A DNA stretch of 56,180 nt, taken from NCBI GenBank assembly GCA_013042915.1, contig JABDPF010000045.1, positions 1 through 56,180 on the forward strand, read 5' to 3'. A program made the translations under genes and the position numbers. Positions 7,535 to 34,045 of the stretch are shown here, piece by piece (the first letter of the stretch is position 1; each line of letters starts with the position of its first letter). The notes under the pieces were generated by a model that was not told the origin of the DNA, searched no databases, and saw nothing but the letters and a program-made list of their open reading frames with translations. This DNA is from Lysobacterales bacterium. GTDB lineage: Bacteria; Pseudomonadota; Gammaproteobacteria; Xanthomonadales; SZUA-36.

Positions 7535-7680
7535 GCCGCCATTTTACCCCCTTAATAGACGTGCGCGTCGTTTCGGGAACGAGTCTCCTTTGAACTCGGT
7601 GGCGACGCCTGGACCACCTCACCGTTGGGCGGTCAAATCGAGTCAGAATCACAGGACTTCGGGCTCCAGGCCGAGAATGC

Positions 7681-7767
7681 GTACACCCCCTCCCCGGGTA
7701 TTTGGGTGTCTGGAACGCCCGAATAGCGCACAGGGACGTCTTGAGGGTGCCCGGGGAGGGGGTGTAC
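7681..7767. repeat. Perfect 18-bp inverted repeat with 51-base spacer
   Basis: The left arm 7681-7698 begins GTACACCCCCTCCCC and the right arm 7750-7767 is its exact reverse complement. The spacer (7699-7749) is not coding. It lies in the 280-base gap between obgE and the 4-hydroxyphenylpyruvate dioxygenase gene. There is no T-tract, so it is not a simple terminator. Its size and symmetry resemble a short palindromic mobile or REP-like element. No copy number can be judged from one window. Confidence 0.7.
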
Positions 7768-7814
7768 GTGTTCACGGCCGGGTTGAAAGCACACTGCTTC
7801 TCGCAGCATTGAAT

Positions 7815-8888: not shown

Positions 8889-8943
8889 TTTTCTCTCCAA
8901 ATCTCAATCGCAGGAAGGCAAAGGCGACTGCGGCGATGCAGTG

Positions 8944-10416
<1,473 letters not shown>

Positions 10417-12326: not shown

Positions 12327-12344
12327 GCGGGTTAGAATAGGCCG

Positions 12345-13661
12345 ATGGCATCCCGCAAATCCCGCGTACCCACCACGCGCCTCGGCCGACTGGCCCGCAT
12401 GGGTTTTGCCGCGGGCGAGTTCGCGATCGAAGGCCTGAGCGAAAGCGCGCGCCGAATAGGTGCGCCCGTGCCCAAGGACGCTGTGAACGCACTCCTGACC
12501 GGCGCCGGCGCCACCAAGCTCGCCAAGCGACTGGCCGGCATGCGCGGTGCGGCCATGAAAATGGGCCAGATGCTCTCGATGGAGGGCCCGTCCATCCTGC
12601 CGCCCGAGTTCGCGGAAGCCCTGGCCATCCTGCGAGACTCAGCCGACACCATGCCGCACAAGCAGCTTCGTGGCGTGATGGGGCGGGAATACGGCAAGGG
12701 CTGGGAGGAGCGTTTCGATTCGTTCGACTACGAACCGATCGCCTCGGCCTCGATCGGCCAGGTTCACCGGGTGCAGACCCGCGACGGGCGCGACCTCGCT
12801 TTGAAAATCCAGTACCCCGGTGTGGCCAGGAGCATCGACAGCGACGTCGACAACATGTCGATGATGCTGCGCCTGCTGAATATCCTGCCGGTCGATCTCG
12901 ACGTCGATGAGATCGTGGACGAAGCCAAGCGGCAGCTACGACAGGAAGCCGACTACGAACAGGAGGCGCGCTTCCTGCGCGACTACCGTGGGCGGGTGCG
13001 GGACAACCCGGTTCTGCGCGTACCGAAAGTCCATGAGGATCTGACCACCCGGCGCATACTGGCGATGGACTTTGTCGAAGGAGAGCCGCTGGAAGTGCTG
13101 GGTGAGGAGGGGTTCGACCAGGAGACCCGCGACCGCGTCGGCAGGGAGCTCGAGCGCCTGCTGTTCCGCGAATTGTTCGAGTTCCGCCTGATGCAAACCG
13201 ATCCGAATTTCGCCAACTACCTTTACCAGCCGCAGGAAGGACGCATCGTGTTGCTGGATTTCGGATCGACCGTCAATTTCGAATCCGCCTTCACCGAGCG
13301 CTTTCGCCGTATTACCCGGGCACTGGTCGAGGACGACTACGACGCAATCTGGCGCCACGCCGAGGCCATCGGTTACCTGCAGCCCGGTGACAGCCCCGCT
13401 TACTGCGGCCGCGTGATCGAACTGATCCGCATCATTTGCGAGCCCATTCGCGAGGACCAGGTCTACGACTTCGCTTCCTCGGACGTGGCCGTCCGGGCCC
13501 GCGATGCCGGCCTGCAACTCGCCATGAAGAGCGGTGGCGAGCTGCGTTCCCCGCCGCCTGAAACGGTCTTCCTGCACCGCAAGCTGGTCGGCTCCTTTCT
13601 GCTGTGCAGCCGTATCCGCGCCCGGCTCAACGCGCAGGAGATTCTGAAGGAATTCCTGTAA
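12345..13661 (+). CDS. ABC1/ADCK (UbiB-like) atypical kinase
   Basis: A 438-residue member of the UbiB/ADCK protein-kinase-like family, linked to ubiquinone biosynthesis or quinone lipid handling. The family KxGQ signature is present as MKMGQMLSM near residue 70. An Ala-rich loop IASASIGQVH replaces the usual Gly-rich loop. The catalytic-type motifs are LMQTDPNFANY and the metal-binding LLDFGST. It lacks the C-terminal membrane helices of E. coli UbiB and is closer to soluble ADCK3/Coq8-like proteins. It follows tnaA by 18 bases on the same strand and may be read through from it. Confidence 0.85.
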   Translation: MASRKSRVPTTRLGRLARMGFAAGEFAIEGLSESARRIGAPVPKDAVNALLTGAGATKLAKRLAGMRGAAMKMGQMLSMEGPSILPPEFAEALAILRDSADTMPHKQLRGVMGREYGKGWEERFDSFDYEPIASASIGQVHRVQTRDGRDLALKIQYPGVARSIDSDVDNMSMMLRLLNILPVDLDVDEIVDEAKRQLRQEADYEQEARFLRDYRGRVRDNPVLRVPKVHEDLTTRRILAMDFVEGEPLEVLGEEGFDQETRDRVGRELERLLFRELFEFRLMQTDPNFANYLYQPQEGRIVLLDFGSTVNFESAFTERFRRITRALVEDDYDAIWRHAEAIGYLQPGDSPAYCGRVIELIRIICEPIREDQVYDFASSDVAVRARDAGLQLAMKSGGELRSPPPETVFLHRKLVGSFLLCSRIRARLNAQEILKEFL

Positions 13662-13710
13662 AAGGCCGCAGGGGTCTCTTGTAATAAAAAGTTTGCGACT
13701 TGCGTCGTTC

Positions 13711-15234
13711 CTACGGGCGGCGGCGGCGTCCGGGGCGTCCGCGGCGACCCCGCGGAGTCTCGGGTGCCGGCGCATCGGGCGGCGGTGGAAGGTCGGGAAG
13801 CGCCTGTTGAGACGCCGTGCCTTCGAGGATGATGCGACGCATCTCCTTTTCGACGACGGGATCGGTATCAATCGGCTGGTAACGCGACAGGCGAGACTCG
13901 ACCTGCTGCGCGGCTCGAGACACCAGGTCAGGAGCTTCATCTGTCAGCGACGTGTCGCGCGTGGCGCGGTCGATCACCGGATCCGTCTGGTACAGTTCGC
14001 GCGGCCAGTGATCGAGGGTTTGCTGCAAGGTCAGCATGTGACTTTCGCCGATCACGTGGTCGACCAGTTCCTGGGTGGGCAGGTCGTCCAGGGGGCGTAT
14101 TTCGCGGCAAAAATGCAGCGCCTGACCACAGACCTCGTTGTCGAACACGAGCTTGGGTAAGCTGAACGTCAGAACGAAATCCAGCATGCCGGGCCCGGAG
14201 ACCGAGTTGACTCCAGCCAACGCCGCCAGCAAGGCACTGCTGAAGGTTTCCCCGCCGGCCTGGGCATCGAGGTACTTGCCGTCACTGAGTGCCATGTAGG
14301 CTTGGCAGGGAAGTCCGAGGTGCTTGGCGATAGCCACGTACGCCACGTTCAGATGCTGGGCCTCGATCGCGGCCATCGGGGAACTGGCGGCTTTCATGTG
14401 GAAAGTGGCCGGTGCGCCACCGAACAGCACCGGGTGGCCGGGCCGCAGCAGCTGGGCCATGGTCAGGCCGGCGAGCACGTCCACGCAGTGGAACACCAAG
14501 GCGCCCACGAGCGTGACCGGTGCGATCAAACCCATCAGGGTTACCGGCACGATTTCGACCGGTATCCCGGCCTCTACGCAATCGAGCAGGTTCTGGCAGG
14601 AATCCTCGCCGTACCGAAAATTTCCCGTCGCGGTGATCGTGAATAGCGCCAAGGGACGCGCTGCGAGATCCTCGGCATCGCTGCGAAACAGGCCCAGCAG
14701 TCTCGCCAGCCGCGGCACGCCGTGTTCGCCAAAAGCACCCGAAACTACCGGCTGCTTCGAATTCAGCAAGGTCAGGTACAGGCGCCAGGCATCGGAAATG
14801 CCGGCCTCGACGTCACAGGTGGAAAACGCGGTGGCCAGGTAGCCGATGTGTTCGAGGCCGTCCGCGAGGCGCACGTATTCGACGTAGTCTGCGGTCGTGG
14901 CCAGGCGCGTCTCGCCACTGCGGTGGTCAAGCACTTTCAGGCCGCTGGAGCCGGGCACGAAATGAACGCGATCGCCACCCAGGTTCGCGTGGGGCTTGCC
15001 GTCACGGTCGTACAGGCTGAATTCGGACGGGGCCGTTTCGATCGCCCGATCGACCACTTCGGCGGGAAAGAGCACGCGCTCACCGGATGCATTTTCGCGT
15101 AAACCGCGATCCAGCAACTGCGCGCGCAGCGACGCGCCGCGAATCTCCATCCCGGTCTCGGCCAGAATGCGGCGGGCCTCGTCAAGAATGCGCCCGGTCA
15201 GGGCGTCGTCAAGGACCTCGAGGCCAGGCCTCAC
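13711..15234 (-). CDS. MttB-family (trimethylamine methyltransferase-like) methyltransferase, non-pyrrolysine type
   Basis: A 507-residue protein with the MttB/COG5598 TIM-barrel architecture. Segments such as [22 protein letters not shown] and [23 protein letters not shown] resemble the family core. The archaeal trimethylamine enzyme reads an in-frame UAG as pyrrolysine; no internal amber codon occurs here. It therefore belongs with homologues such as glycine betaine methyltransferase MtgB, and the substrate is unknown. The C-terminus is a Pro/Arg-rich tail (about the last 35 residues). It starts with GTG, which overlaps the stop of the upstream ACT-domain gene (GTGA). No corrinoid protein or reactivase is nearby. 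Confidence 0.8.
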
Positions 15235-19925: not shown

Positions 19926-21044
19926 CTAGGGATGTTCGGATTCGATCCTGCGATGCGCGGCCTGCATCGAGCGGACCCAGGAAATCTCGTCCCCTACCCG
20001 AATCGCACGTGCCAGGTCGTCCAGCACGCTTCGGAACTGGCCGACAACCTCGCCGGTCATCGCGTTGCCCTGCTGGATTTCGAAATAGAGATGGGGATTC
20101 TCAGAGACCACCTGCGCCGCCACCTGCAACTGGGCATTGAAGGTGCTCGACGAGATGCGTTTGAGCAGGGGAACAGCCTCGCCACTTTCGGCCAGTGCGC
20201 TTGCGAAGGCAATATTGACGAGGTGCGAGAGTCCGAGCACCCAGGCCATGACCTCGTCATGCTCGGCCAGGCTGAGATCGACGCATTCAGCTGCCGTATG
20301 CGCGAACAGCGCCCGCGCTTCTGCCAGCGCTTCGGCGTTGCCGACATCGACGAACAGGATGTGCCGGCCGGACAACCCGACTTCGTCCGGGCCGAACATC
20401 GGGTGAACGGAGCACACCCTGCAACCCGCGTCGGCCAGCGCCTCGAGGCCGCTCGTCATCGGGCTTTTCAGAGAACCGATGTCAAACACCAGGGCCCGCG
20501 GGTCCAGTTCGGCCAGGCGGTGCAGCACCGCGTTGGATGGGCGTAAGGGGACGGCGACGACGATCACATCGTAATCGTCCGCCACGGATTCCCAGTCCTG
20601 CACGACGTCGAATGGCGCTTCGACGTCAGCCGGATCGGCGACATCCACCCCGTAACCCACCGTGTCGAGGTAACGTGCCATCCACAGGCCCATGCGCCCG
20701 AGCCCGCCGATCACCAGCGCGCGAGCGCCCTCGCCGTGGCCCGATTGCGCCAGTTGATGCGTCTCCTGGTCGCCTACCGAATGATGGATCAGCGTTTCGA
20801 GCACTTCGCGCGCCAAGCGGGCCGATATCCCAAGATGCTGGGCCCGGCTGACGCCGCGATCGATGACTTCGCGCTCGCGTTCGTAGTGGCGCAGGGGTGC
20901 GCCGGTTTTCAGCTTGTGCTGGCCGATGGACTTGACGACCGAAAGGCGCTCGGCGATCAGGTCGATGATGCCGGTATCGATATCGTCCAGCCGGTCGCGC
21001 AGCTGCTTGAGTTCATCCGGAGTGAGCGGTGCATCGGAGGCCAT
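19926..21044 (-). CDS. tyrA: Bifunctional chorismate mutase / prephenate dehydrogenase
   Basis: A 372-residue T-protein of tyrosine biosynthesis. The N-terminal AroQ chorismate mutase domain (about 1-95) shows LRDRLDDIDTGIIDLIAERL and KLKTGAPLRHYERE. The NAD-binding prephenate dehydrogenase domain follows with VIGGLGRMG and the active-site region CSVHPMFGPD. Length matches E. coli TyrA (373). It appears monocistronic, with an 83-base gap before the Lon-family gene. Note the contrast with the tyrosine-degrading island 10 kb away. Confidence 0.96.
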   Translation of the reverse strand: MASDAPLTPDELKQLRDRLDDIDTGIIDLIAERLSVVKSIGQHKLKTGAPLRHYEREREVIDRGVSRAQHLGISARLAREVLETLIHHSVGDQETHQLAQSGHGEGARALVIGGLGRMGLWMARYLDTVGYGVDVADPADVEAPFDVVQDWESVADDYDVIVVAVPLRPSNAVLHRLAELDPRALVFDIGSLKSPMTSGLEALADAGCRVCSVHPMFGPDEVGLSGRHILFVDVGNAEALAEARALFAHTAAECVDLSLAEHDEVMAWVLGLSHLVNIAFASALAESGEAVPLLKRISSSTFNAQLQVAAQVVSENPHLYFEIQQGNAMTGEVVGQFRSVLDDLARAIRVGDEISWVRSMQAAHRRIESEHP

Positions 21045-21319
21045 TTCCGTTCCTGTATTCGTTCAGCCATCGGGACATTCGAGGCATTCTAGAGCCTAAC
21101 CGTTTGCGGCTCCACAAAATTTCCCGCGCCGGCGAAAGGGCGCGGCAATCATCGCGTACCGGCGGTACCCCATGCGTGCCGAACGAACTGGCCCAAAGGG
21201 GGATTGGTGTACACTCATCGCACATCACCGGGCGCGCATCACCAGACGGATGCGTGATGGCATGACAGGTGGCCCTCCGGTGAAGTCCTTCGACTGCGCA
21301 GGCCAAAAAGAGAGTGCCC

Positions 21320-22414
21320 ATGAAACCGACATCCACAACGTCCGCGGTTCAAACCGCCATCGAGATTGCCATCAATTTGCTCATGGTCTTCCTGCTGCTG
21401 TACTGGTGCCTGAAGATACTGAGCCCGTTCATTCCCCTGATCCTGTGGGCCGCCGTGATCGCGGTGTCGCTTTACAAACCGTTTCTGAAGGTGCAGGGCA
21501 TGCTGGGCGGCCGCAAGAAACTGGCCGTCGTACTGTTTGCCTTGATCGGTCTCGCGGTCGTCCTGGTGCCGGGCTGGATGTTTGTCGGCTCCATCCTGGA
21601 GTCCACCAACGAGATCCGATCGGGACTGGAGAGCGGACAGATGGAAATCCCGCCCCCGGGAGAGAACGTGCGCAACTGGCCCGTCGTGGGCGAGAAGGTC
21701 TACTCGCAGTGGTCCGAGGCAACCAACAATCTCGAAGCATGGATCGCCGACAATGCCGTTACCATCAAGGCGCTGATCAGCGGCGTATTCGGCAAGCTGA
21801 CACAGGTCGGAATCAGCGTGATGGCCTTCGCCGTCTCCATTCTTATCGCCACTGCTTTTCTGGCCAACGCGGACCACATCGTGGGGGGCGTGAGGTTGTT
21901 GCTCCGGCGACTTTTGGGAGAACAGGCCGATGAGTTCATGACACTCTCCAGCGCCACCGTGACATCGGTGGCCGTGGGTGTGCTGGGAATCGCGTTCATC
22001 CAGGCGGTTCTCGCCGGGGCCGGTATGCTGGCGGTCGGTGTACCGGCCGCGGGCATCCTGGCGTTGTTGGTTCTGCTGGTGGCGATCGCCCAGCTACCGC
22101 CCTGGCTGATTCTGCTGCCGGTGATTTTCTATGTGTTTTCCGTCGAGGAGAGCACGCTGGTGGCCACGACCTTCGCCATCTGGAGCCTTGCTGTCTCATT
22201 CGCCGACATGGTGCTGAAACCGCTGATGCTGGGAAGGGGCGTCGAGGCGCCGATGTTGGTGATCCTGCTGGGCGCTATTGGCGGACTGATCATGTCAGGC
22301 ATCATCGGCCTGTTTGTCGGCGCCGTGGTGCTGGCGCTCGGCTACAAGCTGCTCGAGGCATGGCTGCTCATGAACGAGGAACCGACAGCAGACGAACCCA
22401 ACGCAGCCAGCTGA
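21320..22414 (+). CDS. AI-2E family transporter (PerM/YdiK-like permease)
   Basis: A 364-residue polytopic membrane protein with a helical pair at each end and several central helices, the layout of the AI-2E/PerM exporter family. Conserved features are SPFIPLILWAAVIAVSLYKP near the N-terminus and the C-terminal GRGVEAPMLVILLGAIGG. Characterised members act as Na+/H+ antiporters or export small molecules; AI-2 export is shown only for a few. The ATG at 21320 is preferred over the GTG two codons earlier. It is the first gene of a tightly spaced five-gene operon ending at 26688. Confidence 0.85.
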   Translation: MKPTSTTSAVQTAIEIAINLLMVFLLLYWCLKILSPFIPLILWAAVIAVSLYKPFLKVQGMLGGRKKLAVVLFALIGLAVVLVPGWMFVGSILESTNEIRSGLESGQMEIPPPGENVRNWPVVGEKVYSQWSEATNNLEAWIADNAVTIKALISGVFGKLTQVGISVMAFAVSILIATAFLANADHIVGGVRLLLRRLLGEQADEFMTLSSATVTSVAVGVLGIAFIQAVLAGAGMLAVGVPAAGILALLVLLVAIAQLPPWLILLPVIFYVFSVEESTLVATTFAIWSLAVSFADMVLKPLMLGRGVEAPMLVILLGAIGGLIMSGIIGLFVGAVVLALGYKLLEAWLLMNEEPTADEPNAAS

Positions 22415-22425
22415 GGTAGAAAATC

Positions 22426-22887
22426 ATGCTTGCGAATTTTGTGCTGGGCATCCTGATGATGATCATCAACCTGGGCATCCAGGTAGTGGCCATCACGCTC
22501 ATCCTGCGTTATTTCCAGCGCCGCGTGGAGCGAGACACGTATTCCATCGGGTTTACAGACAACGTGCTCATGCTGAGCACCGTCATGGGTGTCCTGATCG
22601 TTGGTCATGGCTTCATGTTCGCCACCTGGGCCCTCCTGTTCCAATGGCTGGGCGAGTTCAGCGATTTTGAAAGCGCTTTTTATCACTCCACGGTCAATTT
22701 CACCTCCCTGGGTTATGGCGACATCGTGATGAGCCCGAAACACCGGCTGCTGGGCGCCCTCGAAGCCGCCAACGGCGTCCTGATGTTCGGTCTGACCGCA
22801 GGTTCCGTGCTATCCGTCATGAATGCCACGTTCAGTAATAACAAGGCGTTCCAATCTCTGAAAAACCATATCAATTCTTCTGACTAG
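22426..22887 (+). CDS. Small K+ channel-like protein (ion_trans_2 pore)
   Basis: A 153-residue membrane protein with hydrophobic segments at about 3-27, 47-72 and 108-130. The pore loop between the last two carries a K+ selectivity filter, TSLGYGDI at 93-100, matching the TxGYGD signature. There is no RCK/TrkA-N domain and no voltage-sensor helix, so gating is unknown. It lies 11 bases after the AI-2E-type permease and 16 before the outer-membrane efflux gene. Its place inside an efflux operon is unusual. Confidence 0.82.
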   Translation: MLANFVLGILMMIINLGIQVVAITLILRYFQRRVERDTYSIGFTDNVLMLSTVMGVLIVGHGFMFATWALLFQWLGEFSDFESAFYHSTVNFTSLGYGDIVMSPKHRLLGALEAANGVLMFGLTAGSVLSVMNATFSNNKAFQSLKNHINSSD

Positions 22888-22903
22888 GAATCAGGTCGAG
22901 GTC

Positions 22904-24448
22904 ATGGCAGGTATCGAACAGCAACCACGAGCCTCGGCGAAACTCACCATGCTGCAGTTCCTGGGTGTAGCCGTGTTCGCGTCGATGCTCGGCGGATGTA
23001 CCGTGGTCGGACCGGACTACGTGCCGCCCGACACCGAGGTACCCGACACCTGGACCCAGGTTCCGGACCAAGGGCTTTCCACTGCGCCAGTCGAGCGGGT
23101 CGAGTGGTGGCGCGTGTTCGATGACCCTGTGCTTAATGAATTGGTCGCCAACGCCCGCCGGAACAACAACACGCTGGAAATCGCGGGATTGCGCGTGCTG
23201 GAGGCCAGAGCGCAGCTGGGTATCGCACAGGGCCTGCAGTTTCCACAGGCGCAGGCCGCCAGCGGCGAGGCATCGTACGTTTCTCCGCCCGAAAACACGG
23301 GGATCGATGCCGGCTACTGGCAACTGGGCCTCGGCGCCGGGATCAGTTGGGAGATCGACTTCTGGGGCCGCTTCAAACGCGGTATCGAGGCCGCCGATGC
23401 CGCTTACCTGGCATCAATTGCGGGCTTTGACCAGGCGCAGGTTTTGCTGGCATCGGCCGTGGTCGGAACCTACACCACGATTCGATCACTTGAGGAACAG
23501 CTGGCCATTGCGCGCCAGAACGTGGCCATCCAGCAGCGCAGCTACGACATCACCGAGGTGCTGTACCGCAACGGCTCCGACTCGGAACTCGATATGCAGC
23601 AGGCCCTGACCTTGCTGCTTAGCACGCAAGCCACGATTCCCGCGCTGGAAACCACGCTGGTTCGGGCGCGCAATGCACTCAGCGTGCTGTTGGGGGAGGC
23701 GCCGGGGCGCCTGGTCACACAGCTGGAACGCGGCGGTGGCCTGCCCGACGTACCCGCCGATATCGCCATCGGACTCCCCGCGGACCTGTTGCGACAGCGC
23801 CCGGACGTACGCCAGGCGGAATACCTGGCCATGGCGCAGAACGCCGCTGTGGGACTGGCCGCGGCGGACCTTTATCCCAGCTTTTCATTGACGGGTTCGA
23901 TCGGCGTTGCCTCGAACACCCTGGGTGACGCGGATTTCGGCGATCTGTTCAGCTCGGATGCCCTGACCTGGTCCGTAGGGCCTTCGTTTATATGGCCCTT
24001 TTTGAACTACGGTCGGATCAAGAACAACGTCCGCGTGCAGGATGCCCGCCTTCAACAGGCCCTGGTGAATTACCGGGAAACCGTGCTGCAGTCCGCACGC
24101 GAAGCGGAGGATGCGATGGCGACATTCATCGGCGCCCGACAGCAGCACGAAATCCTGGAGAAGACCGTCAGCTCGGCCATCCGTTCGAACGAACTCGCCA
24201 CGCTGCGTTACCGGGAAGGATTCTCTGATTACGAGCGGGTGCTCAACTCGCAGCAGGCCCTGTTCGCGCAGCAACAGCGCTACATCACCAACCAGGGGGA
24301 CATCGTGCTGGCCCTGGTTCAGCTGTTCACCGCGCTGGGAGGCGGTTGGGAAACCCGCGAAGGCATACCGGAACTCGACCCGAAAACGCTCGAACTCATG
24401 CGGGAACGCACCGATTGGGGTGACCTGATTCCGGCAGGCGCAAATTAG
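22904..24448 (+). CDS. Outer-membrane efflux lipoprotein (OprM/NodT family)
   Basis: A 514-residue TolC-like channel subunit. The N-terminus has a lipoprotein signal with lipobox LGGC (Cys32), then the family motif VVGPDYVPP. Two OEP repeats follow, marked by ARNALSVLLGEAPG and LRQRPDVRQAEYLAMAQNAAV. The protein forms the trimeric exit duct of three-part pumps. It sits 13 bases upstream of the HlyD-type adaptor gene, so it probably works with it and the DUF2955-like membrane protein. Confidence 0.92.
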   Translation: MAGIEQQPRASAKLTMLQFLGVAVFASMLGGCTVVGPDYVPPDTEVPDTWTQVPDQGLSTAPVERVEWWRVFDDPVLNELVANARRNNNTLEIAGLRVLEARAQLGIAQGLQFPQAQAASGEASYVSPPENTGIDAGYWQLGLGAGISWEIDFWGRFKRGIEAADAAYLASIAGFDQAQVLLASAVVGTYTTIRSLEEQLAIARQNVAIQQRSYDITEVLYRNGSDSELDMQQALTLLLSTQATIPALETTLVRARNALSVLLGEAPGRLVTQLERGGGLPDVPADIAIGLPADLLRQRPDVRQAEYLAMAQNAAVGLAAADLYPSFSLTGSIGVASNTLGDADFGDLFSSDALTWSVGPSFIWPFLNYGRIKNNVRVQDARLQQALVNYRETVLQSAREAEDAMATFIGARQQHEILEKTVSSAIRSNELATLRYREGFSDYERVLNSQQALFAQQQRYITNQGDIVLALVQLFTALGGGWETREGIPELDPKTLELMRERTDWGDLIPAGAN

Positions 24449-24461
24449 AAGGAGCAAGCAC

Positions 24462-25592
24462 ATGGCCAAGGAAAAAGACGGCAACCCGGCGCCCGAGCCG
24501 GCAAAACCGCCCAAAAAAGCTAAGGACCCGGTAAAGAAGTGGACCCGGATCATCCTGCTGCTGGCGCTTGCACTGCTGGCCTGGTACTTGCGCGCCGATC
24601 GCGTGACGCCGATGACGACGCAGGCCAGGGTTCATGCCCTGGTAGTGCCCGTGGCCCCTGAAGTTTCCGGCACCATCACGCAGGTCGACGTTGCGAACAA
24701 CCAGTTCGTCGAGGCCGGGCAGGTGCTTTTCCGCATCGACGACGAACGCTACCGCCTGGGCGTGCAGCAGGCCCAGGCCGCGCTCGACCAGGCCTATTCG
24801 AGCCAGGGGGCGGCCAGCGCCAACGTGCAGGCGGCCGAGGCGACGCTGCGCTCCGCCCAGGCGGCCGAGGAACGCTCGCGCCTGGACGCGCTGCGCATGC
24901 GCCGGATTCGCGAGGAAGATCCGGGAGCCCTGTCGGCACGCCGCCTTGAATCGGCCGAAGCTTCGCTGAAGGTCGCCCAGGGTAACGTAACCGCCGCCGA
25001 GGCGGCCCTGCGTGCTGCCATCGAGCAACTCGGCAGGCCAGGAGACGACAATTCCGCCGTGCAACAGGCACTGGCCGGTCGGGAATCGGCGCAGCTCGAC
25101 GAGACCCGCGCTACCGTGCAGGCACCCGAAGATGGCGTCGTCACTGGCGTGCAGCTGGACAAGGGCAACTTCGCGGGCGCGGGGCAGCCGCAGATGACGT
25201 TCATTGCCACCCACAACATCTGGATTCAGGCCGACCTGAAGGAAAACAACCTCGAACACATCGACCCCGGCGACCGGGTCGGCATCGTATTCGACGTGTT
25301 GCCCGGACGCGTTATCGAGGGCACCGTTCGCGAAGTGGGTTTCGGCGTGGATATTCAAAACCCGCCGCTGGGCAAGTTGCCCACCATCCAGAACGACAAG
25401 AACTGGTTGCGTTCGGCGCAACGATTTCCCGTACTGGTGGATTTCGAACTGCCACGCAACGAACGACGGATCACGCCCATCAAGGTCGGCTCCCAGGCGA
25501 CCGTGGTGGTTTACACGGGCGAAAACCCGGTGACGAATCTCCTGGCGCGCTGGGTCATGGCCGCCCGGTCGATCCTGACGTATGCCTACTGA
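24462..25592 (+). CDS. HlyD/EmrA-type membrane fusion protein
   Basis: A 376-residue periplasmic adaptor. A basic cytoplasmic N-terminus (Lys/Pro-rich, about 1-35) precedes one membrane helix (about 37-55). Then come the lipoyl half VAPEVSGTITQVDVANNQFV, an Ala/Gln-rich coiled-coil hairpin (about 100-210) and the second lipoyl half with VQAPEDGVVTGVQLDKGNF. It would bridge the inner-membrane partner encoded next and the outer-membrane channel encoded before it. An AAGGAG site precedes the ATG. Confidence 0.93.
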   Translation: MAKEKDGNPAPEPAKPPKKAKDPVKKWTRIILLLALALLAWYLRADRVTPMTTQARVHALVVPVAPEVSGTITQVDVANNQFVEAGQVLFRIDDERYRLGVQQAQAALDQAYSSQGAASANVQAAEATLRSAQAAEERSRLDALRMRRIREEDPGALSARRLESAEASLKVAQGNVTAAEAALRAAIEQLGRPGDDNSAVQQALAGRESAQLDETRATVQAPEDGVVTGVQLDKGNFAGAGQPQMTFIATHNIWIQADLKENNLEHIDPGDRVGIVFDVLPGRVIEGTVREVGFGVDIQNPPLGKLPTIQNDKNWLRSAQRFPVLVDFELPRNERRITPIKVGSQATVVVYTGENPVTNLLARWVMAARSILTYAY

Positions 25593-26688
25593 CAGACCCG
25601 CCCGCCACCCCTTGGCAGCGCGCCGTATTCTCAGGCTGGCGCTCGGTACGTCCTTGTGTTTGCTGTTCTCGCAACTCGTTGCGTGGCCACTGTCCTTCGT
25701 GGCGCCGGTCCTGACGCTGGTCATCCTGGCGACCCCGCTGCCACCACTGGGTGTCAAAAACGCGCTGGGGTTGTTGGTTGCACTGCTTGCACCGGTGATC
25801 CTGGGCGCGTACCTGTTGCTACCCTTCATGGAGTACGCCCGCTGGGTTGCCATCCTGCTGGTGGGCCTCGCCCTGTTCTATTCTTTTTATTTCACCGCAC
25901 GGGGCGGCAATCCGATGCTCGGTATGTTCATGACGGTTGGTTTGACGCTGATCGTCACGGTGGGCAGCGTCAGCGGCGATGTGGTCTGGCTGCTGATCAA
26001 GACGCTGTTCGCGTGCACGGTGACGGCCATCGGTTTTACCTGGATCGCCCATGCGCTTTTGCCGGATATGGCCGGCCAGGCAGCGCCGGACGGTCAAAAG
26101 AAACCGCAGCCTCCGAAACCCGGCCCTGCCGGAGCCGGCCGCACTGCACTCAGGGCGCTCTTCGTGACCTTACCGATGGCTTTGCTGTTCCTGTTCATGA
26201 GCGGCAGCCCGGGCTACACGGTGGTGATGATCAAGGTGGCCACCATGGGACAACAAGCGACAGCCGATCTCAGCAAAGCCATGGCCACCTCGTTGATGAT
26301 GTCCACGCTGTGGGGAGGGCTGGGCGCCATGGCGGCCTGGTACGTCCTTTCGATCTGGCCGTCGTTACTGATGTATACCTTGCTGGTGGGTCTCGCGGGC
26401 CTGGTCTACGGCCGGTGGATATTCCAGGGGCCGGCGGTGCATCCCCAGCTCCAGATGGCGCAATACGCCTACCTGACGATGATCGTGATTCTGGCCCCGG
26501 CCGTCCTTGACGGCGCGGCGGGTTCCGGCGCCGGGGCGGCTTTCTGGACGCGCGGGATGTTGTTCGTGCTGATCGCCGTCTATGGCACCGTGGCTGTTCG
26601 CGTGTTCGATGCTTTTTGGCCACCGGTCCGGTACGAAGAGAAACCCGCCGGGTTATCCGACCCGGCACCCGTAAAATCGCACGGATAA
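25582..26688 (+). CDS. DUF2955/FUSC-like inner-membrane efflux protein
   Basis: A 368-residue protein with two sets of hydrophobic helices separated by a Pro-rich cytoplasmic linker (about 170-195). This repeats the layout of FUSC/aromatic-acid-exporter membrane proteins and of DUF2955 proteins that accompany HlyD-type adaptors. The start overlaps the adaptor gene by 11 bases, so translation is coupled. Substrate is unknown; AaeB relatives export hydroxylated aromatic acids, and that would fit a cell handling phenolic breakdown products (inference only). Confidence 0.8.
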   Translation: MPTDRPARHPLAARRILRLALGTSLCLLFSQLVAWPLSFVAPVLTLVILATPLPPLGVKNALGLLVALLAPVILGAYLLLPFMEYARWVAILLVGLALFYSFYFTARGGNPMLGMFMTVGLTLIVTVGSVSGDVVWLLIKTLFACTVTAIGFTWIAHALLPDMAGQAAPDGQKKPQPPKPGPAGAGRTALRALFVTLPMALLFLFMSGSPGYTVVMIKVATMGQQATADLSKAMATSLMMSTLWGGLGAMAAWYVLSIWPSLLMYTLLVGLAGLVYGRWIFQGPAVHPQLQMAQYAYLTMIVILAPAVLDGAAGSGAGAAFWTRGMLFVLIAVYGTVAVRVFDAFWPPVRYEEKPAGLSDPAPVKSHG

Positions 26689-26758
26689 TTGATTCAGAGT
26701 CTTGCTTCGGGGTCTTCGAGGACCAATAATCGGCGCATCGCAGCGGAGACCGAATTCG

Positions 26759-27760
26759 ATGTCATACAACCTCAGGAATCGTAGTTTTCTCAAGTTGCTC
26801 GACTTCACCAAGCGCGACATGGATTACCTGCTCGATCTGGCGCGCGAACTCAAGCGAGCAAAGTACGGTGGTTTCGAGGTTCAGAAGCTGAAGGGAAAGA
26901 ACATCGCCCTGATCTTTGAAAAAGCCTCGACGCGGACCCGCTGTGCGTTTGAAGTCGCCGCCTACGACCAGGGCGCCAACGTGACGTACCTCGACCCGGA
27001 CAGCTCCCACATCGGGCACAAGGAGTCGATTCGCGACACCGCGCGCGTCCTGGGCCGCATGTACGATGCCATCGAGTACCGGGGCCATTCGCAGGCCATC
27101 GTCGAGGAATTGGCGGCCAGCGCCGGCGTGCCCGTGTACAACGGGTTGACCGACGAGTGGCATCCCACCCAGATGGCGGCGGACCTGCTGACGATGCGCG
27201 AACACAAGCCGGGCCCCTGGCATGAAATTTCCTATTGCTACCTCGGAGACGCGCGCAACAACATGGGCAATTCGCTGATGATCGCGGGTTGCCTGATGGG
27301 AATGGACGTCCGCATCGCTGCGCCGCGGGCGTTGTGGCCGGACCAGAAACACGTGGCCCTCGCCCGCGAACTCGAAAAGGCCAGCATGGGCCGCCTGACG
27401 CTCACCGAGACCCCCGAGGAAGGGGTCGATGGTGTCGACTTCATCCACACCGACGTGTGGGTTTCAATGGGTGAGAAGGCGGAAACCTGGAAGAAACGCA
27501 TCGAGTTGCTCAAGCCATACCAGGTCAACCGGGCGATCATGGAGTCTTCGGGCAACCCGCGGGTCAAATTCATGCACTGCCTGCCCGCGTTCCACGATCT
27601 GAACACCGCGGTGGGCCGCGAGATGCATGAAAAGTTTGGACTGGAGTCGATGGAGGTCACCGACGATGTGTTCGAATCGCCGGCCGGCATTCAATTCGAG
27701 CAGGCCGAGAACCGGGTGCACTCCATCAAGGCCCTCCTGGTGGCCACGCTGGGCGCTTAG
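26759..27760 (+). CDS. arcB: Ornithine carbamoyltransferase (probably catabolic)
   Basis: A 333-residue enzyme interconverting ornithine plus carbamoyl phosphate with citrulline. The carbamoyl-phosphate loop is STRTR (in [13 protein letters not shown]). The ornithine-binding SMG loop is VSMGEK and the catalytic HCLP motif is [10 protein letters not shown] chose the ATG at 26759, with GGAGA upstream; an earlier in-frame start adds a non-homologous leader. Its stop codon is directly followed by the carbamate kinase ATG, which points to the catabolic (ArcB) rather than biosynthetic (ArgF) role. Confidence 0.9.
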
Positions 27761-28705
27761 ATGACACATCCCGTCGTGATCGCCCTCGGTGGCAACGCCA
27801 TTTTGCGCAGGGGACAGGCCCTGAACGCGGAAAACCAGCGCGAAAACATCCGCGTGGCGGCCGCGCAGCTGGCGGAAATCCACAATAACCACAAGCTGGT
27901 CATCGCGCACGGCAACGGACCGCAGGTTGGCCTGTTGGCTTTGATGGGCGCCGCCTACGATGCGGTCGAACCCTACCCGCTGGACGTGCTGGGAGCCGAA
28001 ACGGTCGGCATGATCGGCTACATGATCGAGCAGGAGCTCGGCAACATCATCCCGGCCGACGATCACATCGTCACCGTGCTGACCCAGGTGGTGGTGGATT
28101 CGAAAGACCCCGCTTTCAAAAATCCGACCAAGCCGGTCGGGCCGGTTTACGACCGCTCGGAGGCGGAACGCCTGCAAGCGGAAAAAGGCTGGGCGATCGC
28201 ACCCGACGGGCCGCATTTCCGCCGTGTCGTACCCTCGCCGGAACCCCGGCGGATTATCGAGATAGAACCGATCCGGCTGCTGGTCGAGGCCGGCATCGTG
28301 GTGATCTGCGCCGGTGGCGGAGGTATCCCAACCGCCTACAACGGCAGCAAACTGTATGGCGTGGAAGCCGTCATCGACAAAGACCTGGCCTCCGGTTTGC
28401 TGGCGCGCAGCCTGAACGCCAAGCAGTTCGTGATGCTGACCGACGTGCCTTGCGTTTATACGGGCTTCGGCACCGACCATCAGCGAGCCATTCGGCGGGC
28501 ACACCCCGATGCCCTGGAGGAATTCGACTTTGCGTCCGGCTCGATGGGGCCCAAGGTGGAGGCGGCCTGCCGCTTCGTACGGGAGACCGGTCACCTCAGC
28601 TCGATCGGGCGACTGCGCAACCTCTGCGAAATCGTCGAAGGGAAAGCGGGCACCCTGATCTCCAACGTCGTGGACGGCATCGAGTACGCCGACGATCCGA
28701 GGTAG
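27761..28705 (+). CDS. arcC: Carbamate kinase
   Basis: A 314-residue amino-acid-kinase-family enzyme that makes ATP from carbamoyl phosphate and ADP. Family motifs are [13 protein letters not shown] at the N-terminus, [10 protein letters not shown], the glycine run ICAGGGGIP and [10 protein letters not shown] near the C-terminus. It abuts arcB with no spacer. Together they could perform the last two steps of the arginine deiminase pathway, but no arginine deiminase (arcA) or arginine/ornithine antiporter (arcD) is in the window. Citrulline or carbamoyl groups from another source are possible inputs. Confidence 0.95.
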
Positions 28706-28730
28706 CCCCGTTGGTGAAGCCGTACCCGGG

Positions 28731-31700
28731 TCAGTTTTCGACCGTGTAGCCGATATCGACGCCCGTCTGGCTGTCGCCCGAGGTGGCCATGACGCCCCAG
28801 CCGCTCCCCAGGTCGTAACGCACGGATACCACGTTATTGGTGCTGAAAACGCCGACGCCATAGCTCAGGAAGACCTTGGGCGCGATATACGTGCCGATGC
28901 TCACCGCCCCTACCCCACGCTCCATGTTGAAATCGCTTCCCGTGATCAGCAGGGTCTGGGCCCGCTCGCGCGTGGTCATCGGATCGGTGTAGGGTTCGAT
29001 CAGCATGCGCCGGAGCGTTCCGGTGACCAACAGTCCGGCCCGACGAATTTCCGAATTGCCGTAGATCAGGCGCTCGGCCTGAATGTTCAGGTGAGGGTTG
29101 TCCGCCGGCACTTCGGGGAAGCCGATTTTGCCGTCCGTAATCTCGAGGCGTTGGCCGAACGCCAGGATTTCGCCCTCGAGTTCAAGGCTGCCCCGGGCCA
29201 TCGGCATCAAGGGGCCATTCCACTCGAAGCGGGTTTCTCCGGTCACATCGACCTCGGCCACGGACAGGTCGATCGCGACACCCCGACCCAGCGTCAGCTC
29301 GAGCGATCCGAAAACGGGTATCTTCCGACGCTTACTCGGTGCGGCCCCGGCCTCGGGCAGTGAGCCCGCCACGATCTGAACGTCCTCGCTCTCAGCCACG
29401 GCCGGCGAAGGAATGATGCTGGGCGCCATCACGGCCTCCGGCACCGCCAGCCGCCCATCAAGGTGCAGGGCGCCGTCCCTCCAGGCCATGCTGATATCGG
29501 GGTCCACGGTCATGACGAGGTCTTCGGCATCGAATATCTTGAGGCCCTGCCCGTAGACCGAGAGCTCCAGGCCGGGGGATAAGGGATCGGTCAGGTCGAC
29601 GGTCGCGGCCAGCCTTCCCTCACCCTGCACCGCGTTGAAGCGCCCCGTGAGCTCGGTCTTTTTCTCATCCCTTATCTGTCCGTTCAATTGGATGTCGGAT
29701 AGAACCAGGCCGCTGGCAGTATGCCGAAACAAGCCGTCGCGCAGGTCGATGCGGCCATTAAAATAAGGCTGGTCGACGGTGCCGGAAATATCCAGGTCCA
29801 ACTGCAGGCTGCCAGCGACCTCGTCGACCAGGGGTATGAACACCCCCAGAACGTCCAGATCGTTCAGCCTGGCGGTCAATGTACCCGCCACAGGGGCAGC
29901 GAGGCCCTCGCTGATGTCGCCTATTTCGAACTCAAGACCTACCTCTCCCTGGCCGACGATTGGCAGGCTGAACTGACCCCGGGTAATTTCCCCCTTTTTG
30001 AGCTGGACCGACAGCAAACCCTGCCCGGTTTCGAGTATCGAGGTGTCTTCACCGGAAAAGCGAACGGTGCCCGGGGCGAATGTGAATTGCGCGCTGGCGC
30101 TGGGCTCGACCGCCGGCGGTATGTTGAATTGGACTTCACCGTCCAACGCCTGGGTCAACTCCACTGCTTCCAGGTAAGGGTCCAGCAGACGCAGGGGTAT
30201 TTGGTCGAAAACGGCATTGCCCTCGACACCTGCCTGCTCGGTCCAGCCGCCATCCAGGCAGGCACGGGCGCGCGAGGTGACGGTAAGGCAGGCATCAGCC
30301 AGCGAAATTTCCTTCCTGGTCAGTACGAAATCAGCCGCTGCCTCGAGTTCGACCAGCCCTTCATCAGGTCCTCCCGCCAGGCTGAATTGCGCCAACTGTC
30401 CTTCCCAGCGCCAGTCGGGCCATTCCCACTCGAGGTTTTGAATGGCGCCTTTCGCGATAGTCTTTATCTCGTAACCGGATTTCTCCGCGAGCAGGACCAG
30501 GTTCTGCTGTTCGCGTCCGAGGTTCATTTCCAATGTCAGCGCGTCGAGGCGGTTGGAGCCCATCCAGGCCTGCTCCGTCTCGAGACGCAGGTCGGCCAGC
30601 CAGTCGAGATCGGCACGGGGTGATGATGTCAGGCGAACGCGCTCAGCCCCCAACCCGTTCCAGGACAGGCCGGAACCCGAGAGATCCACCCGAACGCGGG
30701 GCAGATCCTCGCGCCATGCGTACCGTCCTCCACCCTTAAGGCTGCCGCTGGCCCCGGGTACAAACTGGCCGAGATCGACAATGTCCATTTCGAAGTCAAT
30801 CCCCGTGGGACGGTCGAGGCTGCCGTCCAGCGAAACCCGGGATTCTCCCGAACGCAAGGTGAACCCGGAGAACAGTAATTCGCCTTTTTTGTAAGATCCG
30901 CTGCCGTTTGCCACCACCGTCTGTCCCTCCACGACAGCGCTGAGACCCTGGGCATTGAAGGACACGGCCAACGGTTCGATGCGTCCGGATAGTTCGACTG
31001 CCCCGCTGACGACCGCAGGCCATTCAGCGTAGAGAGAATTCGTGGACAACTGGTCGGTAAGCAGGCTCGCGCGGTATTCACCGCCAGCGGCCCAGTCGTA
31101 GAACACGCTGCCGGAAAGACGCCCACCCAGCACTTCGGCCTGGGGGATGTCGGCTTCCACGTGATTGCGGTCGCCGCTTGCCTCGAAATGCAGGTCGCCG
31201 GCGGCCACACCGGGTGCTTCGAGCTGGGCCTGACCGGTCAGGCGCCAATCATCCAGCGTACCCGAGACCTCTGCGCTGCCGCTGTCACTGCGAAGCGTAT
31301 CTTCCTGGTCGCCACCCAGCGGCCAACTGAACTTGCGCCAATGGACCTCGCCGGAAACCGCCGCGAATTCGAGCCCGACCGAGCCCGTGGCGCTCATGGT
31401 GAAGGAATCGACCGCGGCTGAGCCGTCCACTGCCAGCTGGTAAGCACCGACCGAGCCGCTGAGCGAGGCCGTGGCGGCCAGCTGCACCGGGTCGTACAGG
31501 TCTTCCAGTAGCAGGTCGTAAGCGACGTCCGCATCCACATTGGCCTGGAACGGGTGCTCGAGGTCAACCTCGCCTCGCGCCGCCACGCTTCCCTCCGGCA
31601 GCACCAGCTTGGCGTACTCGATCGTCGCTTCATGGTGAACCCTGGCCCTCATCTCGAAACGCTCTGCGCCCAGCAGTTCGGCATCATCGGAATCCAGGAT

Positions 31701-32117
31701 CCTGATGCCGTTCACCACGCCCTGCTCCAACGCGACCTCGAGGGGCAGCGCCAGCGAATCGGGCACGACGGCTCCCGATTCGTCTCCGTCAGTCGAGGGC
31801 AGGCGGATTTCGAGATCATCGATTTCGACCCGTTGCAGCCGCAGCGCGAGGGGGAACATGGCGGGCGTCGCTACCAGGCGCAGCCGTCCCGCTTTGATAT
31901 CCAGTCCATCCTGCCGATACCCCATACTCGTCAGCACCAGGCCGCCTGCCAGGCTGCCCTCGCGGCGTTCGTACGTCAGACCGGCCAGCCGCTGCTCAAC
32001 CAGGCCAAGCACCCAGCCTGCGCCAACCTCGGTACGCAGCACGGTAAACATCAACGCCAGCGCGACGATTGGAACCAGCAGCGCGATGGATACGACCCAC
32101 TTTAGTGCGCGCCTCAT
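28731..32117 (-). CDS. tamB: Translocation and assembly module subunit TamB
   Basis: A 1128-residue AsmA/TamB-type envelope protein. One N-terminal membrane helix (about 5-27, in MRRALKWVVSIALLVPIVAL) anchors it in the inner membrane. A very long beta-rich periplasmic region follows, and the conserved C-terminal TamB domain ends the protein (GRGVAIDLSVAEVDVTGE, MTTRERAQTLLITGSDFN). Family members span the periplasm and serve phospholipid transport and outer-membrane protein assembly with TamA. Its ATG overlaps the tamA stop codon (ATGA), confirming the start and the pairing. Confidence 0.93.
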   Translation of the reverse strand: MRRALKWVVSIALLVPIVALALMFTVLRTEVGAGWVLGLVEQRLAGLTYERREGSLAGGLVLTSMGYRQDGLDIKAGRLRLVATPAMFPLALRLQRVEIDDLEIRLPSTDGDESGAVVPDSLALPLEVALEQGVVNGIRILDSDDAELLGAERFEMRARVHHEATIEYAKLVLPEGSVAARGEVDLEHPFQANVDADVAYDLLLEDLYDPVQLAATASLSGSVGAYQLAVDGSAAVDSFTMSATGSVGLEFAAVSGEVHWRKFSWPLGGDQEDTLRSDSGSAEVSGTLDDWRLTGQAQLEAPGVAAGDLHFEASGDRNHVEADIPQAEVLGGRLSGSVFYDWAAGGEYRASLLTDQLSTNSLYAEWPAVVSGAVELSGRIEPLAVSFNAQGLSAVVEGQTVVANGSGSYKKGELLFSGFTLRSGESRVSLDGSLDRPTGIDFEMDIVDLGQFVPGASGSLKGGGRYAWREDLPRVRVDLSGSGLSWNGLGAERVRLTSSPRADLDWLADLRLETEQAWMGSNRLDALTLEMNLGREQQNLVLLAEKSGYEIKTIAKGAIQNLEWEWPDWRWEGQLAQFSLAGGPDEGLVELEAAADFVLTRKEISLADACLTVTSRARACLDGGWTEQAGVEGNAVFDQIPLRLLDPYLEAVELTQALDGEVQFNIPPAVEPSASAQFTFAPGTVRFSGEDTSILETGQGLLSVQLKKGEITRGQFSLPIVGQGEVGLEFEIGDISEGLAAPVAGTLTARLNDLDVLGVFIPLVDEVAGSLQLDLDISGTVDQPYFNGRIDLRDGLFRHTASGLVLSDIQLNGQIRDEKKTELTGRFNAVQGEGRLAATVDLTDPLSPGLELSVYGQGLKIFDAEDLVMTVDPDISMAWRDGALHLDGRLAVPEAVMAPSIIPSPAVAESEDVQIVAGSLPEAGAAPSKRRKIPVFGSLELTLGRGVAIDLSVAEVDVTGETRFEWNGPLMPMARGSLELEGEILAFGQRLEITDGKIGFPEVPADNPHLNIQAERLIYGNSEIRRAGLLVTGTLRRMLIEPYTDPMTTRERAQTLLITGSDFNMERGVGAVSIGTYIAPKVFLSYGVGVFSTNNVVSVRYDLGSGWGVMATSGDSQTGVDIGYTVEN

Positions 32118-34045
32118 AAAACCGATGCTCCGATCGTGAAATGGATGCGCCAGGGCTTGCCGGGGAGATCCAGTCCCTTGGCGATGTCGACCCGAAGCGC
32201 GCCGGCAATCGTATACCAACGCACACCCACACCGACGCCTTTCTTGAGATCGATCCGGTCCCAGTCATTGAAGGCGTTGCCCACATCGAAGAAGCCTGCC
32301 ACCGACCATTTATCGAATATTCGGTACTCGGCTTCGAGACTCGCGGTGATCACGTTGTTGGAGCCGATGTTGTTGTTGCTCAGGGTCTCGTAGCCGTAAC
32401 CACGCACGCTCGTGCTGCCTCCGGCCTTGAAGCGGTAGAGATTGGGCAGTTCGGTGAGCGACAGCTGCAGGGACTGTCCTTCAGGATTCACTTCGATGGT
32501 ATTGATACGAGCGTTCGTCCAGCCGATTTCCGCCCGCGCCAGCACTCGCCAGTTATCACCCACACGGCGATTGATTCTGCCGGAGAGGTAGGCCTGGATG
32601 AAATCCGTATCGGAACCCAAAGCCTCGCTCGACGCGAACGCCCAGCCGCGGACCCGGTCGCCCACGGTTTCGAAGCCCTGACCGCGTGTAAACGGCATCT
32701 CGTACTCCACGCCCACCGAAACGGTCTGGCTGGTTCGGCCCAGGATTTCAGCATTCGCGGGGAGATTCACCTCTTCACTCAGGGCATCGACGATGAGTGG
32801 GCCGTAATCGAGCGTTTCGTAGAGGTATTGCGCAAACAGCGTCTCGAACCATTGGCGATAGCCCCGGTCATGATCCTGGATTCTCAGCCGGCCAATGCGC
32901 AGCGAATTGTCACCGATATCGACGCTGCCCAGGGTGTACGTGATGTCATCATCGAACTCGGCCCGGATTCTGACTGACTCGTTTTCCCGCTTGAGCAGCG
33001 CTTCCGCGATCCAGAACTGGCGATTCGGGGTGTCCCGGGGCACCCGGTATTGGCTGCGGACGAAATACTCGTTGTTGTGGTCCTGCCAACCGGTCGAGAG
33101 TTCGAACGTATCGCCTCGCTTGGACAACAGGTAACGTTGCCAGCGGAACTGGACGCGGGCACCCGTGTCGCTGCCGATACCGACAGAACCCTGGTAAAGA
33201 TTGGGAGGCCGGGGCTCGAGGTGGATATCGAGGTCCACCCGGGGCGGGGTTTCCTCGAGCTGGCGGTCCTCGATGATCTCGATGTTCTGGAAATACCCGG
33301 CCTGCCAGAGGTCGATCCGAAACCGCTCCATAATCCAGGCATCATAGGGTTCGCCCGGACGAAAGCGGGGCAGGTTTTCCAGGATATAGGGATTCACCGC
33401 ATTCTGATGGAAGGTCACCTCGCCCATGACGGCCTGCGGGCCCGTGTCCAATACCAGGTCGAGCCACGCCTCGTTTTTTTCCAGGTCGAGACGGATTTCG
33501 TGGGCACGGAAATCCGCCAATAGGTAGCCGTTCTCCTCGGCCAGTTCCAGGCTGCGTCGTTTCTCCGCCGCCCAAACCGGCTGGTCCAGCACGGCGCCTG
33601 CGGTCAGGGGCCACTTCCCGCGCCATGCACGTAAACTATCGATTTCCGCACCCGGGCCTTTCAGTTCGACCCGCGCCGCTGCGACGAGTACCGGCGGGCC
33701 CTTGGCGATGTTCACCACCAGGCGCCAGCTGCGCTCTGCCTGCTCTTCAACGCGCGCCTCGATACGGGGCTGATAGTATCCGTACGGGCGCAGGGCCAGC
33801 GCGGCCTTGGTTTCCGCTTCCCGGCGAAGCTTCTCGAGCCGTCGCGCGGAAAGCCGCCCAATACCGGTGAATCGAAACGGTTCGACCTGGGCTTTTACGT
33901 TGCCGAGCACCGGCTCGGAGACGCCCTCGATAACCACCTCGAGCTCATCCGCCCGCAGTTCGCCGGCACCGGCAGACAGCGCCAGGGAGAGGCACAGGCC
34001 GGCTATCCAGTGTCGGGAACGTGTTTTCTGCGGCGGTTGTCGCAT
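32114..34045 (-). CDS. tamA: Translocation and assembly module subunit TamA (Omp85 family)
   Basis: A 643-residue outer-membrane Omp85 protein. The signal peptide covers about residues 1-32 (RHWIAGLCLSLALSAGAGELRA). Three POTRA-like domains follow, then a 16-strand barrel. The barrel contains FKAGGSTSVRGYGYE, the Omp85 lid motif VRGY. Gene order tamA-tamB with a 4-base overlap is the standard arrangement. The start at 34045 gives a normal signal peptide. A longer upstream frame overlaps the divergent symporter promoter and lacks one. Confidence 0.93.
   Translation of the reverse strand: MRQPPQKTRSRHWIAGLCLSLALSAGAGELRADELEVVIEGVSEPVLGNVKAQVEPFRFTGIGRLSARRLEKLRREAETKAALALRPYGYYQPRIEARVEEQAERSWRLVVNIAKGPPVLVAAARVELKGPGAEIDSLRAWRGKWPLTAGAVLDQPVWAAEKRRSLELAEENGYLLADFRAHEIRLDLEKNEAWLDLVLDTGPQAVMGEVTFHQNAVNPYILENLPRFRPGEPYDAWIMERFRIDLWQAGYFQNIEIIEDRQLEETPPRVDLDIHLEPRPPNLYQGSVGIGSDTGARVQFRWQRYLLSKRGDTFELSTGWQDHNNEYFVRSQYRVPRDTPNRQFWIAEALLKRENESVRIRAEFDDDITYTLGSVDIGDNSLRIGRLRIQDHDRGYRQWFETLFAQYLYETLDYGPLIVDALSEEVNLPANAEILGRTSQTVSVGVEYEMPFTRGQGFETVGDRVRGWAFASSEALGSDTDFIQAYLSGRINRRVGDNWRVLARAEIGWTNARINTIEVNPEGQSLQLSLTELPNLYRFKAGGSTSVRGYGYETLSNNNIGSNNVITASLEAEYRIFDKWSVAGFFDVGNAFNDWDRIDLKKGVGVGVRWYTIAGALRVDIAKGLDLPGKPWRIHFTIGASVL

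Follow-up and report, generated by a model that had tools for sequence, protein, structure and literature searches.

A K+ channel-type protein as a recurrent partner of an AI-2E permease and a DUF2955-containing tripartite pump

Results

We analyzed a stretch of 56,180 nucleotides from a Lysobacterales bacterium (hereafter the window), in which five open reading frames, all on the plus strand, and their Pfam domains were confirmed between positions 21320 and 26688 (Table 1). This bears out the originally predicted layout, in which three intergenic distances are 11, 16 and 13 nt and one pair of genes overlaps by 11 nt. An inner-membrane component, an adaptor and an outer-membrane channel are encoded together, and hence the gene set of a tripartite pump is present; judged by its position, the DUF2955 protein is presumably the inner-membrane component. 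Neither OTC nor carbamate kinase, the products of the next genes on the same strand, found a match in the loci of 20 relatives, save for one weak carbamate kinase match of 64 residues at the locus of an unlinked channel, and we therefore place the end of the module at 26688. OTC/arcC and tyrA were rejected as module members, their adjacency to the module not being conserved. A consensus scan of positions 20900-28900 for sigma-70-type promoter-like sites, which is weak evidence, returned none against 1.7 expected by shuffling, and an Rfam search of the window gave no match.

Table 1. Genes of the module and the two genes that follow it.
Feature	Position	Strand	Evidence or remark
AI-2E family permease, YdiK-like, 364 aa	21320..22414	+	Pfam PF01594 E 2.5e-26; PDB 7ot9 YdiK E 7e-44
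K+ channel subunit, 153 aa	22426..22887	+	Pfam Ion_trans_2 E 3.8e-10
NodT/OprM-type outer-membrane efflux channel (OEP)	22904..24448	+	TIGR01845 335 bits, cut-off 210
HlyD-type periplasmic adaptor	24462..25592	+	HlyD_D23 E 4.9e-18, HlyD_3 E 1.6e-14
DUF2955 inner-membrane protein, presumed pump component	25582..26688	+	PF11168 E 1.5e-13
OTC, next same-strand gene	26759..27760	+	outside module
Carbamate kinase (arcC)	27761..28705	+	outside module

The channel protein comprises an extra N-terminal helix, an outer helix, a pore helix, an SLGYGD filter and an inner helix, and has no cytosolic regulatory domain. Its filter, TSLGYGD at residues 93-99, is of the GYGD K+-selectivity type and sits between pore helix and inner helix. 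G96, Y97, G98 and D99 are invariant in 70/70 aligned channel sequences, and conservation is strong beyond the filter as well. The Ion_trans_2 score of 40 bits exceeds the Pfam cut-off of 22.5, and a profile search matched Kv channel chains (E 1.7e-9). In structural comparison the AlphaFold model (pLDDT 92.6) reached Z 9.2 with a bacterial cyclic-nucleotide channel and Z 8.5 with KirBac3.1 (93 residues at rmsd 2.4), but unrelated helical proteins scored up to Z 10.8, so that the fold score is weak by itself.

In the pump protein DUF2955 is the sole family above its cut-off, and no FUSC or ArAE domain reaches its curated score. The protein is predicted to be all-helical, with two halves of six main helices each (AlphaFold pLDDT 89.5, pTM 0.87). 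Among 50 aligned sequences 7 match ArAE_1, 6 FUSC_2 and 4 FUSC, all weakly (best E 0.0009 to 0.008). Searches with the model gave no clear fold match, the best hits being MFS proteins in Foldseek (E 0.023, TM-score 0.19) and a terpene synthase in a VIA search (Z 5.6). Plant ALMT anion channels are superfamily relatives; they are absent among the fold matches listed, which excludes nothing.

Two kinds of known pump resemble this arrangement. In AaeAB and fusaric-acid-type (ArAE/FUSC) efflux systems, too, a HlyD-type adaptor accompanies an inner-membrane protein with many helices, which presumably belongs to the same broad superfamily. Known cases export aromatic acids, and ArAE/FUSC exporters have a small DUF1656 partner protein. 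The window operon differs in encoding a DUF2955 protein without a scored FUSC/ArAE domain, and in adding its own OprM-type channel, the AI-2E permease and the K+ channel. The HlyD-OprM architecture is also common to EmrAB and MdtNOP-type pumps, and the best NCBIfam models for the window adaptor are MdtN/EmrA-like, with scores below their cut-offs. However, the inner-membrane protein of the window has neither an MFS Pfam domain nor a clear MFS fold match.

The AI-2E protein scores 93.1 bits with PF01594 (cut-off 34.3). YdiK is its closest solved relative, although with 188.7 bits against the NCBIfam YdiK model (NF008216) it stays below the equivalog cut-off of 305 bits. In E. coli, ydiK is not known to be linked to a pump or a K+ channel. 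The published signature for the Na+/H+ antiporter group of the family (UPF0118) consists of motifs B to D, with the residues K215, D251, R292-R293, E296 and K298 (PMC7221264). When these motifs were written as our own regular expressions, 0/50 module AI-2E proteins matched B, C and D. Na+/H+ antiport according to the published signature is thus unsupported, which counts against the single-module reading favored below.

AI-2E, channel and OprM genes are adjacent in 14/19 relatives that have a close channel homologue. Of 249 loci the best 80 were named, and most of these have a conserved gene order: 22 follow AI-2E–channel–OprM–HlyD–DUF2955 as in the window (first order) and about 30 follow AI-2E–OprM–HlyD–DUF2955–channel (second order), a linkage rate biased upward by choosing these loci for similarity to an alignment of mostly operon-linked channels. 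The gaps between their genes are mostly within 60 nt. Distances in the channel tree correlate with the distances of the other four proteins, at r 0.73-0.83 overall and at 0.46-0.77 when each of the two orders is taken by itself. Among the isolates that carry the operon is the non-pathogenic Cupriavidus necator A5-1 (L069). Several solo channels without a pump were also among the loci studied.

The reverse search started from DUF2955 in a phylum-wide sample that yielded 28 places, the window included, in 27 of 32 genomes. A K+ channel lay within 6 kb of 13/28 loci against 0.24 expected and an AI-2E gene near 21/28 against 0.33 expected, where the expectations assume uniform gene placement across the genome and related genomes are not independent. 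We therefore reject chance adjacency. Counted by genus, at least one genome has a linked channel in 11/18 (own count). In a class sample, again with the window, 7/12 DUF2955 places above the Pfam cut-off have an adjacent K+ channel. From the phylum-wide sample, genomes G676, G680, G664, G546 and G434 were dropped for weak matches, G676 at E 2.5e-14, whereas a place in G791 at 3.2e-13 was retained. The conservation of the channel with the pump genes on which the original prediction depended takes the form of a link that is kept, rearranged and repeatedly re-established, and the channel is tied to the pump genes far above chance. Since roughly half of the pump loci in the phylum sample lack a K+ channel within 6 kb, and since solo channels exist, the coupling is not obligatory. 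Judged by gene neighborhoods and tree distances, the K+-channel-type protein, the AI-2E permease and the HlyD/OprM/DUF2955 pump form a conserved, co-inherited gene set.

The neighbor most constantly seen with the pump is AI-2E, and five AI-2E–channel pairs without a pump occur in the 27 genomes; given these pairs, AI-2E may be the tightest partner of the channel. The same data would suit a functional couple of AI-2E and channel with which the pump is merely co-regulated. We consider this improbable, since in the second order the channel adjoins DUF2955 rather than AI-2E.

At least three groups of channels occupy these loci with no mutual BLAST match at E 1e-3, the examples being Ion_trans_2 proteins, and in one locus (L073) a pump of clade A stands beside a channel of clade B. 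Channels of a type about 220 residues long also occur at related loci, and the channel of L187, which had been translated in a wrong frame, enters in that form into none of these conclusions. A KefC-like gene lies immediately upstream of AI-2E in three genomes of one genus, and a K+/H+-antiporter-like gene adjoins the pump in L072, L114, L142 and L144. The best-matching relatives of KefC/CvrA-like K+ efflux systems fill a neighboring place at some related pump loci, although these are secondary antiporters, not channels, and the window operon has none. By this comparative evidence, rearrangement and re-assembly of the gene set have occurred several times in the Proteobacteria, and its K+-route component is interchangeable. 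A small protein with no known gating domain and strong conservation outside the filter could also serve as a membrane-potential sensor or a structural pump subunit instead of a working K+ channel. This is very improbable indeed: the full K+ filter never varies, and replacement by unrelated channels and antiporters argues for K+ flux rather than shape.

The KefC-like neighbors raise a defense against electrophiles or acids, in which K+ loss and H+ entry would shift cytoplasmic pH against reactive or phenolic compounds, the pump would remove these, and the channel would substitute for Kef. The role stated for Kef (PMC10224563) is in line with this. We nevertheless rate such a defense as quite unlikely, because channels do not carry out H+ exchange, a ligand-binding domain is absent from the window channel, and the recruitment of Kef was probably a single event.

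An MscS-type gene lies immediately 3' of the operon in 7 first-order loci, a sub-clade, and about 2.7 kb 3' of two pump-less channels. Of the osmotic/acid stress set proposed in the original prediction, it is the osmotic part that these neighbors support, and the K+/H+-antiporter-like genes point the same way. At high turgor the channel would release K+ while pump and AI-2E protein release organic osmolytes, as a graded response beside MscS-type channels. As the main function this is unlikely: the direct MscS neighbor probably reflects one event, being found in first-order loci only, six of which correspond to the window's own family, and osmolyte release from the cytoplasm needs no tripartite conduit to the outside.

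Discussion

On comparative grounds, K+ efflux is a recurrent, dispensable and interchangeable partner of the AI-2E/DUF2955 pump. Because the combination recurs in several orders and with unrelated K+ channels, the data suggest that potassium release belongs to the working of this pump. We tentatively favor, at slightly under an even chance, the reading that the operon is one transport module in which the pump exports an anion, K+ exit balances charge and turgor, and AI-2E is a partner. DUF2955 would supply the HlyD-OprM conduit with an organic compound that is probably anionic. Such export would strip the cytoplasm of negative charge and of osmolyte; K+ exit through the co-expressed channel would keep the membrane potential inside-negative, and would also shed the counter-ion and turgor brought in with the compound. 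The AI-2E protein would transport some solute as another constant partner in the inner membrane. The anionic nature of the substrate is inferred from the weak DUF2955 similarity to aromatic-acid exporters and from general biology.

The module would most likely serve to export an organic and probably acidic compound while charge and turgor stay balanced. The cell would most likely use it to rid itself of weak or aromatic acids, a task that would include osmotic adjustment. The idea that the channel balances charge, already present in the original prediction, fits the recruited KefC-like, K+/H+-antiporter-like and MscS-type routes. Not every such pump needs a K+ channel, however, as about half of the phylum sample has none close by. 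It is possible, if rather doubtful, that these operons represent a class of pumps coupled electrically and osmotically to a co-encoded K+ route, in which anion export is paired with K+ release and the K+ slot has been filled independently several times by unrelated channels and antiporters.

To our knowledge, descriptions of tripartite pumps name the energy source and the substrate but no counter-ion path dedicated to the pump. No description of this module was found in the mostly open-access literature covered on DUF2955, AI-2E/UPF0118, K+ channels with HlyD and AI-2E, AaeB/FUSC/ALMT and weak-acid anions. Many bacterial K+ channels lack a physiological role, and a conserved one in a pump operon would provide such a role for one of them. 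The module would further supply a context for DUF2955 and the YdiK-like AI-2E protein, and would connect efflux with acid or osmotic tolerance in a way that can be tested.

With regard to regulation, no conserved upstream regulator stands out at first- and second-order loci. Second-order loci share no common family among 56 flanking ORFs (106 collected), and at first-order loci Rrf2 matches were obtained for 3 of 34 upstream ORFs (38 collected).

Gene content and surroundings of the operon

The original prediction of five closely spaced genes was borne out: all five are present in the window with the spacing it had described. Pfam assigned them to AI-2E_transport, Ion_trans_2, OEP, HlyD and DUF2955. 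The window's genome holds a single match each to DUF2955 and to the channel query, two Ion_trans_2 places and three AI-2E places. Neither the ornithine carbamoyltransferase (OTC)/carbamate kinase pair nor the chorismate mutase/prephenate dehydrogenase gene is kept beside the module in relatives.

Table. Features of the window and of loci from relatives or named genomes (L-handles)
Locus	Feature	Position	Strand	Remark
Window	OTC, then immediately carbamate kinase	26759-28705	+	70 nt past the module; OTC start most likely 26759
Window	Chorismate mutase/prephenate dehydrogenase gene	19926-21044	-	Divergent from the operon
Window	1162-aa ORF	28731-32219	-	Possibly TamB-like
L142	Pump without channel; K+/H+-antiporter-like gene	10654-14991		Na+/phosphate cotransporter-like gene and AI-2E-like C-terminus at edge (both by eye)
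L067	Pump-less channel, two unknown genes, short-chain dehydrogenase-like gene (by eye), MscS homologue	1210-5997
L086	As L067	7971-12747
L217	AI-2E-K+ channel pair, no pump gene nearby	about 7085-9227
L218	As L217	about 6292-7879

The K+ channel is strongly linked to the pump

Close channel homologues (E <=1.2e-35) were found in 19 of 60 relatives. In 14 of these, AI-2E, channel and OprM are adjacent in that order, and HlyD and DUF2955 come next wherever the contig is long enough. The other five channels have no adjoining pump, one of them lying on a 3.7-kb contig. Named genomes were also scanned; of the 249 relatives identified there, the best 80 were used to read gene orders. Among these 80, the order AI-2E-channel-OprM-HlyD-DUF2955 (first order) occurred 22 times and AI-2E-OprM-HlyD-DUF2955-channel (second order) 28 times, plus two variants read likewise; seven loci had other orders or partial sets with DUF2955, six contigs ended within the module and 15 channels lacked DUF2955. 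Gene gaps did not exceed 60 nt at 18 to 21 of the 22 first-order loci and at 25 to 27 of the 28 second-order loci. The second order was seen in Cupriavidus, Accumulibacter, Parahaliea, Gilvimarinus, Lysobacter and Pseudomonas marincola, among others. Split reading frames (OprM in loci L079 and L059, DUF2955 in L079) are possibly decaying copies or sequencing errors.

In the reverse direction, 18 of 61 relatives, window included, have a match to the DUF2955 profile A2, and the channel adjoins DUF2955 in 14 of them; in one of the four without it, the contig stops inside the OprM gene. Across the phylum, A2 matched 32 of 397 genomes. The neighbourhood test on 28 DUF2955 places in 27 of these genomes revealed an Ion_trans_2 gene within 6 kb at 13 places, against 0.24 expected (12 of 27 without the window), and a nearby AI-2E gene at 21, against 0.33 expected. 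At two of the 13 linked places (genomes G657 and G481) the channel lies on the opposite strand. In the class sample a K+ channel adjoins seven of 12 DUF2955 places over the Pfam cut-off, window included, and is not adjacent at L140, L141, L142, L149 and L150. We therefore conclude from the phylum and class-sample counts that the channel-pump link is strong but not universal. This conservation is more interesting than the original prediction, made from sequence alone, could see.

Apart from locus L073, the two gene orders are separated in the trees of all five proteins, with support values of 0.997 or more. At this one locus, AI-2E, OprM, HlyD and DUF2955 group with the first-order clade, whereas the channel belongs to the second-order clade and sits, as there, at the 3' end; judged from its sequence and position, it is therefore a replacement. 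The channel's distances correlated with the distances obtained for its four partner proteins (r 0.73-0.83 overall).

Predicted channel and DUF2955 proteins

The channel subunit model (pLDDT 92.6) contains an extra N-terminal helix, an outer helix, a pore helix, the filter and a long inner helix. Its profile matched voltage-gated K+ channels in the PDB (E 1.7e-9). Structural Z-scores (8.5 for KirBac3.1, 9.2 for a bacterial cyclic-nucleotide channel) agree with a K+ channel but are not decisive, since unrelated helical proteins rank equally high. DUF2955 is predicted to be all-helical and built of two halves (pLDDT 89.5), and no clear relative was found among solved structures. Because family members weakly match aromatic-acid-exporter profiles, and given the biology of that superfamily, our guess is that the pump substrate would be an organic anion. 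A literature search found no paper describing the module; in PMC10441182, a DUF2955 gene and an HlyD gene appear as entries in a deletion table.

Interchangeable K+ routes at the pump loci

Channels at pump loci fall into groups without mutual BLAST match: LGYGDIVM-like proteins of ~150 residues, including that of the window, TT[VL]G[YF]GD proteins of about 220-265 residues and TIGYGDVVPT proteins of about 126-150 residues (Ion_trans_2 confirmed on examples). In three genomes of one genus, a KefC-like gene lies directly upstream of AI-2E and no channel is beside the pump. K+/H+-antiporter-like genes adjoin the pump in L072, L114, L142 and L144 (named by best matches under equivalog cut-offs in L072 and L114, by similarity to L072 in the others); in L114 this gene heads a tight six-gene run that includes the channel.

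Exporting an organic anion would have two costs, depolarisation of the membrane and an excess of K+ as counter-ion, and a parallel K+ path would relieve both. One niche refilled by unrelated K+-efflux proteins is what would be expected if K+ release aids the pump, and K+-coupled export is a plausible hypothesis. A Kef-like protective role may overlap with such K+-balanced anion export, as may an osmotic role.

MscS-type and AI-2E neighbours

In seven first-order loci DUF2955 is followed, after 3 to 131 nt, by a gene for an MscS-type mechanosensitive channel (three checked by Pfam, four by similarity). Since six of them correspond to genomes of the window's own family (L028, L029, L031, L032, L033 and L037), this arrangement probably reflects one event. 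Two pump-less channels have an MscS homologue ~2.7 kb downstream, and L067 and L086 represent a second conserved K+ channel-MscS neighbourhood.

AI-2E is the pump's most constant neighbour. The module protein resembles YdiK, and the residues proposed in PMC7221264 as a mark of Na+/H+ antiporting AI-2E proteins are absent from the module AI-2E proteins. Within 27 genomes, 12 of 125 AI-2E places lie <=1.5 kb from a K+ channel, against 0.31 expected, and five of these 12 pairs have no pump. By coordinates, pump-less pairs like those of L217 and L218 occur in the phylum genomes G718, G791, G607 and G481.
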